Positions 55,584-64,000 of a DNA stretch of 64,000 nt are shown here, piece by piece. The position numbers were made by a program, and so were the translations under genes. How positions within the stretch are numbered: position 1 is the first letter of the stretch; the number at the start of each line of letters is the position of its first letter. The notes beneath the pieces are model-generated. The model was not told the DNA's origin, ran no database searches, and saw only the letters and a list, made by a program, of their open reading frames with translations. The DNA is from Bacillus andreraoultii (GTDB lineage Bacteria; Bacillota; Bacilli; Bacillales; Caldibacillaceae). The stretch covers positions 79,526 to 143,525 of the forward strand of contig NZ_LN868936.1 of NCBI RefSeq assembly GCF_001244735.1. Direction: 5' to 3'.

Positions 55584-56960
55584 CTATATACCTAGTTTTT
55601 CCTCTGCTAATTTTAGCTGTACTTTTACTTGTTCGAACCCTGTACCACCATAACTATTTCGAGCTGCGACAACATGTTTCGGTTGTAACACTGTAAAAAT
55701 ATCTTCTTCAAACGAATGACTAAACTTCTTGTATTCATCTAAACTTAAATCGAGTAAATACTTATTGTTTTGGATTGCATACAGGACGATTTGGCCAATA
55801 ATTTCATGGGCTTTGCGAAATGGAACTCCTTTATTTGCCAAGTAGTCAGCAAGATCTGTTGCGTTGGAATAATCTTGACTTACCGCTTGAAGCATATTTT
55901 CCGTCTTTACAGTCATCGTTTGAATCATTGGCGCCAATAATTGTAGGGAATCGATTAACGTTTCAACCGTATCAAACATTCCCTCTTTATCTTCTTGTAA
56001 GTCTTTATTGTAGGCAAGTGGCAACCCTTTTAATGTTGTTAATAAGCTAAATAGATTTCCGTATACCCGACCTGTTTTACCCCGGAGCAATTCGGGAACA
56101 TCTGGATTTTTCTTTTGTGGCATAATACTAGAACCCGTACAAAAAGAATCATCTAGTTCAATAAATTGAAATTCTTGACTCATCCATAGAACAAACTCCT
56201 CGGACAACCGAGAGATGTGCATCATTAAAATGGAGGCAGCGGAAAGAAACTCTAAAATAAAATCTCGATCACTTACCGCGTCTAAGCTATTTGGATACAC
56301 CATATCAAATTTTAATCGTTTGGCAGATTGATGGCGATCAATTGGAAAAGTTGTACCCGCTAGCGCCCCTGCACCTAACGGAGACCAGTTCACCCGTTTC
56401 AAACTATCTTCTAACCGCTCTTTATCTCTTTCAAACATCCAAAAATACGCTAATAAATGATGAGCGAAACTGATTGGCTGAGCCCGTTGCAAATGAGTAT
56501 ATCCAGGTAAAATGGTTTCGATATGTTCATTCGCTTGAATAAGAATGGCTTCTTGCACTTTTTCTAATAACTTGATAATTTCAATGGTTTGATATCGTAA
56601 ATATAAGTGCATATCTGTCGCAACTTGGTCATTCCGACTCCGACCCGTATGCAGTTTACCACCGACTGGACCAATTTCTTCAATCAACATTCGCTCAATA
56701 TTCATATGAATATCTTCGTCTTCAACCGAAAATGTCACTTCATTGTTCAATACTTTTTCTTGGATTTTCTTCAGACCTGCTTTTATTTGCTTTGCATCTT
56801 CAGTTGGAATAATGCCACAGGATGCCAGCATTTCAACATGGGCAATGCTTCCTTTAATGTCTTCTAGCGCTAGTTTTTGATCAAACTGGATGGATGCAGT
56901 AAATTCCTCAACTAGTTGGTTTGTTTCTTTCGTAAAACGACCGCCCCATAGTTTACTCAT
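55584..56960 (-). CDS. argH: Argininosuccinate lyase
   Basis: 458 residues, fumarase/aspartase superfamily. N-terminal [23 protein letters not shown] with the substrate-binding Arg and Asn, the catalytic-loop signature [12 protein letters not shown] (about 278-289) and HAHLL-type helices are present. It cleaves argininosuccinate to arginine and fumarate, the last step of arginine synthesis. GGAGG precedes the ATG. It follows argG on the same strand but is separated from it by a 633-bp repeat-rich spacer. Confidence 0.96.
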
Positions 56961-57593: not shown

Positions 57594-58805
57594 TTATTTC
57601 AATACTTTACCTTTCGTATGAATCTCTGAATATACTTTTGTTGGTAATCCCCATAGTTTAATAAATCCAACTGCTGCATGATGATCGAATAAATCACCAG
57701 TGGAGTATGTTGCAAGTTCTTCATTATATAAGCTGACGGGTGATTGCCGACGAACGACAACGTGATTGCCTTTAAATAGTTTTACTTTTACGGTCCCAGT
57801 GACACTTTTTTGTGTTTCTTCAATAAATGCATCAATTGCTGGACGTAATGGGGAATACCATAGTCCTTCATATATCATTTTTGCGTATTGGACTTCAACT
57901 TGAGCTTTAAACTGAGTTACTTCCCGTGGCAATGTTAAAAATTCCATTTCTTTATGGGCATTAATTAAAACGAGAGCAGCTGGGTTTTCGTACACTTCCC
58001 GTGATTTAATGCCAACAAGTCGATTTTCAATATGATCAATCCGGCCGACGCCATGTTTTCCTGCCACTTCATTCAATTTTTCAATCAGTTTGGCCAGTTT
58101 TATTTTTTCACCATTTAAAGCAACTGGAACCCCTTGTTCAAATGTGATTTCGACATATTCAGGTTCATCCGGCGTTTTCTCAATTGGTGTCGTCCATTCA
58201 AATGCTTCTTCTGGTGCCTCGTTCCAAGGATTCTCTAATACCCCTGCTTCACAAGCACGTCCCCAAATGTTTGCATCAATCGAAAAAGGATTATCTAAAT
58301 CTACTGGAATTGGAATACCGTGTTTTTCTGCATAAGCAATTTCTTCATCCCGTGTCATCCCCCATTCACGAACGGGTGCCTCAACAGATAAAGAAGGATT
58401 TAATGCTTGAATGGATACTTCAAAGCGTACTTGGTCATTTCCCTTCCCGGTACAACCGTGTGCGACCGCAACTGCTCCTTCTTGTTCAGCCACTTCGACA
58501 AGTAATTTTGAAATTAATGGGCGGCTTAATGCCGATGATAATGGATATTTCCCTTCATATAGTGCATTTGCTTTTAAACTTGGTAAAATATATTCTTCTG
58601 CAAGTAAGTCTTTCGCATCAATCGTAATTGCTTTTATTGCCCCGACCTTGAGCGCCTTTTCCTTAATATAATTTAAGTCTTTCCCTTCCCCAACATCAAT
58701 ACCGAGTGCAATCACATCATAGTCGTATTTTTCTTGTAACCATTTAATTGAAACAGATGTATCTAATCCACCTGAATAGGCTAGAACAATTTTTTGTTTT
58801 TCCAT
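57594..58805 (-). CDS. argG: Argininosuccinate synthase
   Basis: 403 residues, full length. The N-terminal ATP pyrophosphatase motif [12 protein letters not shown] (8-19), [14 protein letters not shown] (about 115-128) and the later [14 protein letters not shown] segment are typical. It joins citrulline and aspartate to argininosuccinate. GGGAG precedes the ATG by 10 bases. A palindrome resembling an ARG box lies about 40 bp upstream. It starts 77 bp after argF in the same direction. Confidence 0.96.
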
Positions 58806-58882: not shown

Positions 58883-59845
58883 CTATAGTAAATTTTTTAA
58901 AATTGACTTTTGTGCGTGAAGGCGATTTTCCGCTTCATCAAACACAACGGAATGGGGTCCATCAATAATCTCAGCACTCACTTCTTCCCCTCGGTGGGCG
59001 GGTAGACAGTGTAAAAAGATATAATCACTTTTTGCATATTTACATAGGGATTCATTCACTTGGTAACTCGTAAACTTTTGTCGTTTTTCTTCTGCTTCCT
59101 TTTCTTGCCCCATACTAACGAAAACATCTGTTACAACAACATCTGCATCTTGAATCATTTCAAATGGATCTTCACCGATATGAATGATAGACCCTGTTTC
59201 ATTCGCAATATTTAATGCAGTTTTTACAACCTTTTCATCTGGCTGATGAGTCGCTGGACTCGCTACAGAAATATTCATTCCTACTTTTGCGGCGCCTTCT
59301 AGTAAAGAGTGACAGACATTGTTGTTCCCATCCCCGACATAACACATTTTTAACCCTTGCAATTTCCCTTTATGTTCATAAATCGTTAGTAAATCGGCAA
59401 GTACTTGTGCAGGATGATGTAAGTCGGTTAGTCCATTGATTACTGGAATCGATGCGTATTCGGCTAGTTCGACAACTTTTTCATGCTCAAATGTACGAAT
59501 CATTATCCCATCAAGATAACGAGACAACACTTTTGCTGTATCATGAATCGTTTCCCCCCTGCCTAGTTGTAAATCGTTCGCATGTAAATAAAGTGCCTGA
59601 CCCCCAAGTTGATACATACCAACTTCAAACGATACCCTCGTTCTCGTTGATGACTTTTCAAAAATCATACCGAGAACTTTCCCTTGTAAAAACGGATGTG
59701 CTATACGATTCTTTTGTAGCTTTTTTAAATATACTGCTTCCTCCAGTAAATAAAAAATCTCCTCACTGGAAAAATCACTAAGTGTTAAAAAGTCACTTTT
59801 TATTTGCTTTTCTTGTATATTTATCACTCGTTCCAACTCCTTCAT
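58883..59845 (-). CDS. argF: Ornithine carbamoyltransferase
   Basis: 320 residues. Carbamoyl-phosphate-binding [10 protein letters not shown] (about 62-71), the HPAQVLAD segment (about 143-150), the ornithine-binding SMGQE region and [10 protein letters not shown] (about 279-288) are all intact. It makes citrulline from ornithine and carbamoyl phosphate. The ATG overlaps the carB stop by 4 bases (ATGA), so it is coupled to the enzyme that makes its substrate, as in the carAB-argF end of the B. subtilis arginine operon. Confidence 0.96.
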
Positions 59846-62800
59846 GTGATTTGCATGAGATAATCGTTAATTGATTTCACCTGTTCTTCTATCTTTGAAA
59901 AATGGACTTCGAATGCAACATGGAAAGTATCCATCGACGTATATAAAGGTACTCGGTAACGGATTGACAGCTCCCGTAACAATTTTCCAATGGACGCTTT
60001 TACCCCCGCCTTTGTTGGTAAAATTAACGCTCCATGAAATTGAGTATGTTTAAACAAATCTTCTAAACTCGTTCGATCTTTCTTTATTATTTTTACATGA
60101 TATCCGAGTTCCATTAGTACTTTCGCTGTGTTCTCTGTCGCAAAGAAATGGATGTTTTTCTTTTTAAATTTCTCTAAAGTTGCCACGAGCTGTTCCTTAT
60201 CTCGGTCAGCAACAGCGCAAAAGAGATTGATCGCATCACTTTCTTTATTTACGCGAGTTCCTAATACTTTTCCTAAAGCTTCTTCATATGTCTTTCCGAT
60301 TCCGAGTATTTCACCTGTGGACTTCATTTCCGGTCCCATAACGGGATCAACATTTTTTAATTTCGTAAAAGAAAATACCGGCATCTTTACAGAATAAAAC
60401 GGTACTTCTTTTGCTAAACCTGTTTTCTCCAATCGTTCACCAATTTGTGCACGAATTCCCATTTCGATAATCGGAATTCCAGTTACTTTACTTAAAATTG
60501 GAATTGTGCGAGAAGCACGCGGATTCACTTCAAGGCAATAGATTGTATCGTTATCAATAACAAATTGGATATTCAGAACACCGACAATCCCTGCTCCTAC
60601 ACAAATCTTCCTTGTATAATCAATTAAGGTTGTCTTTTCCTCTTTTGACAGGTGAATGGATGGATAAACGGTCATACTATCACCTGAATGAACGCCAGCC
60701 CGTTCAATATGTTCAAAGATTCCAGCGATAAAAACATCTTCTCCATCACTTACACAATCAAGTTCACATTCTCTTCCTGGGATATACTTATCAATTAAAA
60801 GTGGCCAACTTCTTTTCTCTGTAAATCGTAATGTACCTATATAATTACTTAGTTCCTCATCATTATAAATAATCTCCATCGACTGTCCGCCAATGACATA
60901 CGATGGACGCACGAGCACAGGATAGTGTAATTTTTGTACCGCTTCTTTTAATTCATCAACAGAATGCGTAATTTCTCCTTTTATATGAGGAATGTCAAGC
61001 TCATCAAGTAAATGGTAAAATTGTTTTCGATCCTCTAATAAATCAATCGTGTCTATCGATGGACCAAAAATACGTACACCTTCTTGTTCAAGTTCCGCTG
61101 CTAAGTTAATTGCCGTTTGCCCACCAAATTGAACAAATACGCCTTCTACATTTTCCTTTTCAATAATATGAAGTAAGTCTTCCGTCGTAATTGGTTCAAA
61201 ATATAATTTATCTGAAATTGAATAGTCGGTACTAACCGTTTCAGGGTTATTGTTCACAACGATTGTCTCATAGCCGAGTTGTTTCAGTGCCATAACAGCA
61301 TGAACACATGTATAGTCAAATTCAATTCCTTGCCCAATTCGTATCGGTCCCGAACCAATAATCAAAACCTTTTTACGATTAGAAACCTCTACTTCATCAA
61401 CACCATGCCATGTGGAATAATAGTAGGGAGTTACCGAGTCAAACTCTGCCGCACATGTATCAACTAATTTATAGGAAGGAACAAGTCTGGCTTCCATTCG
61501 CTGGTGACGAATTTGTTGTTCGGTACAATGAAGTAAGCTAGCTATATATTTATCACTAAAATTAAGTTTCTTTGCTTTTTCTAATAATTGTCTGGGTAAA
61601 GTTTCTAATGAATATGCCCTACATTCACGTTCAAAATCAACGAGCCCTTTAATTTTTGTTAAAAACCATGGATCAATATCTGTAAGCTGATGAATCTTAT
61701 CAATTCCTATCCCTTTTCGAAACGCTTCTGCAAGAACAAATAACCGGAGATCATTTGCTTCAATCATTGCTGAAATCAATTGTTCATTCGTATAACGACT
61801 TACTTCAGGATGATACAATCCCGATACTTTATATTCCAAGGAACGAATTGCTTTATTTAACGCTCCTTCAAATGTCCGGTCAATGGCCATTACTTCTCCA
61901 GTTGCTTGCATTTCAGTACCGAGCGCTCGATTCGCCTCTTTAAATTTATCAAAAGGAAAGCGTGGTAATTTTAGCACAACATAATCAAGAACGGGTTCAA
62001 ATGCCGCGTACGTATTCCCCGTTACAGGATTAAAGATTTCATCAAGATGATACCCGAGTGCACATTTTGCGGCAATCCGTGCAATTGGATAACCCGTTGC
62101 TTTTGAAGCTAAAGCACTCGAACGACTAAGCCGCGGATTTACTTCAATAATGCAGTATTCATTTGTATGTGGATTCATTGCAAATTGAATATTACAACCA
62201 CCAATCACACCTAATGCGCGAATCACCTTTAACGAGGCATTTCTTAATAAGTGGTACTGTTCATGTGTTAACGTTTGGCTCGGAGCGACAACAATGGAAT
62301 CACCCGTATGGACACCGACTGGATCGATATTTTCCATATTGCAAATAATCATGCAAGTATCATTCGCATCACGGACAACTTCAAACTCAATCTCTTTCCA
62401 ACCTTTAATACTTTGTTCAACTAACACTTGATGAATGGGACTTAGAAGTAATCCCTTTTTCAGAAGTTGATAGAATTCCTCTTCATTGTAAGCAAAGCCG
62501 CCTCCTTCACCACCTAACGTGTACGCAGGTCGAATGATAACAGGAAAGCCAATTTGTTGGACAAAATTGACGCCTTCTTCAATCGTACGGACAATTTTTG
62601 ATTCAGGTATGGGCTCATCAATTTGGATCATCAACTCCCGAAATTTTTCTCGGTCTTCACCGTTTTGAATGGATTCCACAGGCGTACCGAGAAGCCTGAC
62701 CCCATATGTTTCGAGAATATGAGATTGAGCGATCTGTACGGTTAAATTAAGTCCCGTTTGCCCTCCAAGCGTTCCAATCATTCCATCGGGTTGTTCGTAC

Positions 62801-63036
62801 TTAATTATTTCCTCAATCACTTCAATCGTCATCGGTTCAATATAAATACGATCAACTATTTGTTGATCTGTCATAATCGTTGCAGGATTGTTGTTAAGTA
62901 ATATGACTTCAATTCCTTCTTCTTTCAACGCAAGACAACCTTGTGTTCCTGCGTAGTCGAATTCAGCTGCCTGACCAATGACAATTGGACCAGAACCGAT
63001 AATTAATACTTTTTTGATCTCTTTATTTAATGGCAT
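59842..63036 (-). CDS. carB: Carbamoyl-phosphate synthase large subunit
   Basis: 1064 residues with the two homologous halves of the family. The N-half carboxyphosphate domain has [19 protein letters not shown] and [18 protein letters not shown]. The C-half carbamoyl-phosphate domain has [19 protein letters not shown] and [18 protein letters not shown]. An oligomerisation region lies between, and a C-terminal MGS-like allosteric domain spans about 930-1064. Both ATP sites look intact. It overlaps carA by 14 bp and argF by 4 bp. Placement with argF marks it as the arginine-pathway enzyme rather than the pyrimidine one. Confidence 0.95.
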
Positions 63037-64000
63037 TGTTCACTACCCCTATACAATCGATTGTTTCAAAAAATTGATGGAAAATAAATTGTGTATCTTT
63101 TGAACCAGGCTCCATTTCCGGATGAAACTGCACCGTTTGAATCGGTAATGTTTTATGTTTTATCCCTTCAACCGTTTGATCGTTTACATGTTGGAATGTC
63201 ACTTCGAATTGATTAAAGTCAATCGTATGTTCACTCACCATATAGCTATGGTTTTGTGATGTGATGAACACTTTACCCGTTCGTAAGTCCTTTACGGGAT
63301 GATTTGTCCCCCGATGTCCGTATTGTAATTTTTCGACTTTTGCTCCATAGGCGAGCGCAATTAATTGATGACCGAGCCCAATTCCTAGTGTTGGATACAG
63401 TTGGGATAAAGTTTTAATCTTTTGCAGTTGACTCGTTAAAATCGTTGGGTTACTTGGACCATTACTTAATACGATTCCATCCGATTGCAATAATTGTATT
63501 TCTTCTAATGGGTGGTCGAATGGCACAACCGTTACTTTACATCCGATTTTTAAGAGACTACGAAAGATTGATTTTTTATAGCCAAAGTCTACGAGAACGA
63601 CATGGGGACCTTTCCCTGCATAAAAACGGACTGATTTCGTTGAGACCATTTGGATGAAGTTTTCTCCCTTAGTCGGTGTCGGCTTCGTATCAGGTGTATT
63701 TGAAATCACTGCGCCTACCGTTCCTCGCTTTCGAATGGTCTTCACAAGTTCGCGCGTATCGACATTTGTTAAACACGGAATACCATTTTTTAGTAAAAAG
63801 GTTTGTAAGGAATCCGATTCCCCATCATGGATACAACTTTCACTTACAACGATTCCACGTATATAGCAAGGTTTATCCTCCTCGAAAACGTTGTCTATCC
63901 GTTCCTTTCCGATGAGTGGATAGGAAAAAACGACAATTTGACCCGCATAAGTTGGGTCAGACAATATTTCTTGCAAGCCAATCATGCTTGTATTGAAAAC
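63023..64000 (-). CDS. carA: Carbamoyl-phosphate synthase small subunit, partial, glutaminase site altered
   Basis: About 325 residues are visible; the N-terminus (roughly 30 residues) lies beyond the right edge, since the frame continues upstream as VFNTSM. The N-terminal CarA domain is followed by a class I glutamine amidotransferase domain. The usual nucleophile motif GICLGHQ reads GIGLGHQ (Gly codon GGG at 63377-63379), so the catalytic Cys is absent. The oxyanion-loop motif GPGDP reads GPSNP (63446-63460). The His and Glu of FHPE, and SQNHSY, remain. The gene is otherwise open and overlaps carB by 14 bp. The altered site predicts loss of glutamine hydrolysis; the subunit may be structural or the enzyme may use free ammonia. 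Confidence 0.9.
   Translation of the reverse strand, partial: VFNTSMIGLQEILSDPTYAGQIVVFSYPLIGKERIDNVFEEDKPCYIRGIVVSESCIHDGESDSLQTFLLKNGIPCLTNVDTRELVKTIRKRGTVGAVISNTPDTKPTPTKGENFIQMVSTKSVRFYAGKGPHVVLVDFGYKKSIFRSLLKIGCKVTVVPFDHPLEEIQLLQSDGIVLSNGPSNPTILTSQLQKIKTLSQLYPTLGIGLGHQLIALAYGAKVEKLQYGHRGTNHPVKDLRTGKVFITSQNHSYMVSEHTIDFNQFEVTFQHVNDQTVEGIKHKTLPIQTVQFHPEMEPGSKDTQFIFHQFFETIDCIGVVNNAIK

Follow-up and report, generated by a model that had tools for sequence, protein, structure and literature searches.

Loss of the catalytic cysteine in CarA of the Bacillus andreraoultii arginine operon suggests an ammonia-run carbamoyl-phosphate synthase

Background

Carbamoyl-phosphate synthases that take free ammonia are known from animals. 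In human and vertebrate CPS I (5dot, 5dou), the catalytic Cys of the small-subunit part is replaced, by Ser in human, and the glutaminase part is kept (PMC4655335). Human CPS1 is ammonia-specific, with its ammonia tunnel blocked at the Gly293 position (PMC4655335), where it carries Gln. A close bacterial system is E. coli CarAB with its C269S mutant (1jdb, 1c30), an enzyme with an intact triad that serves both the arginine and pyrimidine pathways. Cys269 and His353 are essential there for glutamine hydrolysis, and ammonia is usable only at very high concentrations (PMC6245113). Two further bacterial systems offer parallels in nitrogen metabolism. Sporosarcina pasteurii is reported to lack GS and GOGAT activity, to have a low-affinity glutamate dehydrogenase, and to need ammonia for growth (PMC7775470), while an amt-DUF294-dnaQ operon has been described in Geobacillus, Brevibacillus, and others (PMC3412718). 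Diaminopimelate dehydrogenase (Ddh) also fixes free ammonia, with a low affinity for NH4+ (PMC8396482).

Here we describe a carA gene in a 64,000-nucleotide stretch of the Bacillus andreraoultii genome, referred to as the window. The system resembles CPS I in that the catalytic Cys is replaced, a remnant glutaminase domain is kept, and the use of free ammonia is predicted. Unlike CPS I, it is bacterial, has separate subunits, and is biosynthetic rather than detoxifying, and the Cys loss has occurred repeatedly and separately in the arginine and pyrimidine copies. It shares the two-domain fold and carAB organisation of E. coli, but where E. coli has one enzyme for both pathways, this genome (G000; 4.11 Mb in 14 contigs) encodes two synthases with predicted glutaminase-dead small subunits, hereafter dead subunits, and an unlinked intact CarA. 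The open-access library that we searched yielded no paper linking a Cys-less CarA in bacteria to the loss of GOGAT, and none on an island that carries a lone CarA.

Results

The window ends inside an arginine operon with the gene order argC-J-B-D-carA-carB-argF. The carA gene extends past the window edge, and over its full length it occupies L004:7549-8652 on the contig. Residue numbers throughout are those of E. coli CarA, mapped via alignment to 1bxr. The product names of argF, argG, and argH are assumed from family knowledge. The features are as follows.

63023 to 64000, minus strand: carA of the arginine operon, predicted glutaminase-dead small subunit (open reading frame, NF009475, PF00988 and PF00117); the 5' end is outside the window
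63377 to 63379, minus strand: GGG codon (Gly) at the E. coli Cys269 position (residue mapping on E. coli CarA)
63950 to 63952, minus strand: Thr at the E. coli Ser47 position, part of the glutamine/oxyanion site (residue mapping)
63446 to 63460, minus strand: GPSNP, with Gly243 changed to Ser (sequence and residue mapping)
63245 to 63247, minus strand: NHSY, with Gly313 changed to Ser (residue mapping)
63116 to 63127, minus strand: FHPE, with His353 and Glu355 kept (sequence and residue mapping)
59842 to 63036, minus strand: carB, intact large subunit (open reading frame; 14 bp overlap with carA)
58883 to 59845, minus strand: argF, presumed ornithine carbamoyltransferase, the consumer of carbamoyl phosphate (open reading frame and operon order)
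57594 to 58805, minus strand: argG, presumed argininosuccinate synthase (open reading frame)
55584 to 56960, minus strand: argH, presumed argininosuccinate lyase (open reading frame)

The motifs GIGLGHQ, GPSNP, and FHPE were read exactly as an earlier note on this DNA had given them, with GIGLGHQ standing where the catalytic Cys is expected. The GGG codon at that position is two changes away from any Cys codon, again as the note had said, and carB is intact and coupled to carA through the 14 bp overlap. Compared with E. coli, the protein carries Gly for Cys269, Thr for Ser47, and Ser for both Gly243 and Gly313, the last change also occurring in some intact CarAs; His353 and Glu355 are unchanged. 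The protein belongs to the CarA family by both of its domains (PF00988, CPSase small chain, 120 bits; PF00117, class-I GATase, 167 bits) and by the curated models, scoring 416 bits against a cut-off of 221 for NF009475 and exceeding the cut-off of TIGR01368. An AlphaFold2 model of the part inside the window, which leaves out ~ 45 N-terminal residues, had a pLDDT of 85 and matched E. coli CarA and human CPS1, with 1cs0_B and 1jdb as the best Foldseek matches (TM 0.86). We therefore predict that the fold is intact and the glutamine site is not. The Cys-His-Glu triad of EC 6.3.5.5 is broken at Cys269, with Ser47 and Gly243 also changed. The replaced Cys and remnant GATase domain are features of the CPS I type (EC 6.3.4.16), although carA and carB are separate genes rather than the single fused chain of that type. 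As read from the sequence, loss of the glutaminase site in this CarA is well supported.

Three CarA-type proteins were found in the genome. The PyrAA of the pyr operon has Gly at 269 and Asn in place of His353. It had been proposed in the earlier note as a small subunit that the arginine enzyme might borrow; because it lacks both residues itself, rescue by the pyrimidine small subunit is ruled out in this genome. A search for an intact second copy failed at pyrAA and succeeded elsewhere in the genome, where a third CarA (G000:C14:2846173 onwards) keeps all tested active-site residues and has no adjoining carB. TrpG and GuaA retain Cys-His-Glu, so among the enzymes checked the loss is specific to carbamoyl-phosphate synthase.

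To estimate how widespread the loss is, 397 genomes of the order were searched. The bare GIGLGHQ DNA pattern was misleading, matching in 48 of the 397 genomes with most of the loci read being Obg GTPase, and was dropped for a CarA-specific pattern. With the latter, 9 of the 397 genomes, from three genera, had a first codon base other than T at the Cys position. Other routes added G127 (both copies), G319 (pyrAA only), G007, and G362, for a total of 13 Cys-less genomes; the arginine CarAs of G007 and G127 have Ser at the Cys position. In a related genus, g64, the PyrAA of eight genomes has Gly269 together with Glu or Gln at position 353. In seven of the eight, the arginine CarA has Gly269 as well, with Asp or Asn at position 355, and these seven genomes, each a species, have no intact CarA. 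Each Cys-less protein that we tabulated also differed at one or more of the other glutamine-site positions listed. At the Gly293 tunnel position, the window CarA has Thr and most g64 arginine CarAs have Phe, while intact CarAs have Ala, Ser, Val, or Gly. Alignment with the CarA and PyrAA of relatives, as the earlier note had suggested, shows a Cys loss that is conserved in g64 and recurrent in other genera. A tree of 47 CarA/PyrAA proteins needs eight state changes, six of them forced by strongly supported branches, so Cys-less CarA/PyrAA appears to have originated about 6–8 times in the order. In the sister species G001, both CarA copies are intact, GOGAT and Amt are present, and no Ddh exceeds the cut-off. 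In a separate observation, the GOGAT-less genome G067 (L219, L223) keeps Cys in both copies, with Gln273 changed to Leu in pyrAA and Asn311 changed to Ser in the arginine copy, and these copies are possibly at an early stage of the same decay.

Evolutionary rates were compared in two settings. In g64, dN/dS was 0.14–0.22 for arginine carA and 0.04–0.09 for pyrAA, close to the values of argD and pyrC or somewhat higher; these values were measured on g64 genes and indicate that the dead subunits of g64 are under purifying selection. Lineage-specific changes in G000 and G001 were counted at 24:4 and 25:6 for the two dead subunits, against 11:6 for argD, 14:5 for carB, 4:4 for pyrC, and 8:2 for pyrAB. 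Counted as changes, the excess of the dead subunits on the G000 branch is the larger one, but pyrAB and carB were somewhat faster there as well. This pattern fits constraint that is relaxed, not absent.

Cys loss was then compared with nitrogen assimilation. GOGAT (PF04898) was missing or weakly matched in 25 of the 397 genomes. Among the nine Cys-less genomes detected by pattern, seven lack GOGAT and two have it only on the island described below; among all 13, ten lack it and three (G000, G007, and G086) have it on the island. For the nine, Fisher's test of Cys loss against GOGAT presence alone gave p = 5e-8, a value that treats related genomes as independent and is uncorrected for phylogeny. 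The two groups were also searched unequally: GOGAT-less genomes were additionally searched with the CarA family, and GOGAT-positive genomes mostly by pattern, in its general form among the matches listed. Of the GOGAT-less genomes tested, G384 alone had Amt, and nearly every control had it. Ddh was over its cut-off in 13 of 13 Cys-less genomes and absent from most, not all, GOGAT-positive controls. Several GOGAT-less genomes keep an intact Cys-bearing CarA, so GOGAT loss is permissive, not sufficient. Three other GOGAT-less genomes, all of family f14 (G248, G291, and G352), gave no CarA/PyrAA match at all, and these organisms may need pyrimidines and arginine, or have another route to carbamoyl phosphate.

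The lone intact carA is the eighth gene of a cluster running in one direction: gltB, gltD, dapL, dapF, glnA, asnB, amt, carA, DUF294, and a DnaQ-like exonuclease; a gene for an AraC-type regulator lies upstream. The LL-diaminopimelate aminotransferase of the island scored 672 bits against the NF004937 cut-off of 585. Searches of G000 with pieces of gltB, dapF, asnB, and amt gave no copy of gltB, dapF, or amt outside the island and no other close asnB, and separate searches likewise found a single GOGAT and a single Amt, both on the island. We found ~ 17.1 kb of this island at 99.7–99.8% identity in a contig of G007, which belongs to another genus, with the match ending sharply on both sides and the carA DNA identical between the two copies. 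In G007, too, the arginine CarA is dead, with Ser for Cys, Tyr for His, and Asp for Glu. With 500 contigs and 4% contamination in the G007 assembly, contamination is a possible source of the identical island, yet its contig holds other DNA past the island end, including an LtaS-like gene. In G000, genes that we take from their appearance to be transposases flank the island just outside both ends (L006:4281-5919 and L110:11362-11913). They have two different looks, which makes the island unlike a simple composite transposon.

A related island in a third genus (G086; L197, L198) runs from gltB to the exonuclease without carA, and that genome has intact carAB elsewhere. The G086 pair stands alone outside an arginine operon, and the PyrAA of G086 is dead. 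In the tree, the island CarA groups with the family's own arginine CarAs and should therefore fit CarB. The amt, DUF294, and dnaQ trio is that of the operon described in Geobacillus and Brevibacillus; unlike that operon, the island trio is joined to gltBD, dapL, dapF, glnA, asnB, and an intact carA, and is near-identical between genera. A search around the island for a GlnR/TnrA-type box gave none. A scan of named genomes other than the window's own found no CarA on such an island, and carB adjoined CarA at nearly every locus. In Clostridia loci (L141, L167), gltB, gltD, and glnA adjoin carAB, which again links carbamoyl-phosphate synthase with GS/GOGAT genes.

Discussion

These observations would be explained by a high-ammonia lineage that gave up low-ammonia nitrogen assimilation, with no GOGAT, no Amt, and Ddh present, so that the use of glutamine was relaxed. 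The window CarAB would make carbamoyl phosphate from free ammonia in vivo, with the dead small subunit retained for structure, and because PyrAA is dead in the same way, both resident synthases would run on ammonia. We take them to do so from the essential Cys and His of E. coli and the CPS1 precedent. Given the very high ammonia that the E. coli enzyme needs, the large subunits or the access of ammonia may have to differ here. Comparative genomics supports the part of the earlier note's interpretation that had ammonia as substrate and CarA as a structural subunit, through the coincidence of Cys loss with GOGAT and Amt loss and Ddh, and through purifying selection in g64; the part that had the pyrimidine subunit stepping in falls.

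A horizontally moved island of ~ 17 kb would later have restored GS/GOGAT and Amt together with a glutamine-dependent asparagine synthase and the route through LL-DAP aminotransferase, and have brought a lone intact CarA, an order of loss and then island that we infer. The island would supply enzymes that use glutamine or glutamate as alternatives at steps otherwise run on ammonia, and under ammonia shortage its CarA would act in trans as the glutaminase of CarB, PyrAB, or both, through a presumed exchange of subunits. We consider this explanation as a whole, with a dead but retained CarA, ammonia-run synthases, and an island CarA acting in trans, to be probable. That the mobile CarA swaps with the dead subunits of two synthases, letting the cell switch between free ammonia and glutamine, is a proposal we put forward tentatively, and trans-complementation itself is inferred. 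Sporosarcina pasteurii is a physiological parallel, except that the window organism has GS/GOGAT on its island.

Alternatively, both synthases could always run on ammonia only, with the island CarA as a passenger or in another role, such as a free glutaminase, or pairing with no CarB. Seven g64 species have no intact CarA and keep their two dead subunits under selection, which suggests that carbamoyl phosphate can be made without a CarA glutaminase, and the island CarA has no carB neighbor. We nevertheless find this rather unlikely, as the intact CarA sits among genes of glutamine- and glutamate-dependent assimilation, keeps every tested active-site residue, clusters with the family's arginine CarAs and so should fit CarB, and is identical at the DNA level in the two island copies.

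That the window CarA is a pseudogene in decay, without a function today, is improbable: both dead subunits did accelerate on the G000 branch, but the gene has a full-length open frame coupled to carB, its fold is predicted intact, and the same loss is kept across g64 species at dN/dS of 0.04–0.22, measured on their own genes. Another residue standing in for Cys, so that glutamine hydrolysis persists, is more improbable still. The window CarA does retain His353 and Glu355, but Ser47 and Gly243 of the glutamine site are changed, PyrAA lacks His353 as well, and the E. coli enzyme cannot hydrolyze glutamine without Cys269 and His353 (PMC6245113). A sequencing or assembly error we regard as negligible. 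A change of TGT to GGT would take a single T to G, but the codon is GGG, further site residues are changed, and the same loss occurs in the paralog and in independent genomes with differing accompanying changes; the intact TrpG and GuaA agree with the earlier note's view that one read error does not explain the codon.

Should the preferred explanation, with ammonia-run synthases and an island CarA in trans, be true, then bacteria have repeatedly evolved a carbamoyl-phosphate synthase that takes only ammonia, as animal CPS I does, and its evolution tracks nitrogen lifestyle, occurring where GOGAT and Amt are lost and Ddh is present. Decay of the CarA catalytic site would then mark, in a genome, growth that depends on ammonia. 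As a natural experiment, the shared island would have restored glutamine-dependent metabolism as one package, and its lone intact CarA makes the exchange of subunits between carbamoyl-phosphate synthase complexes directly testable.
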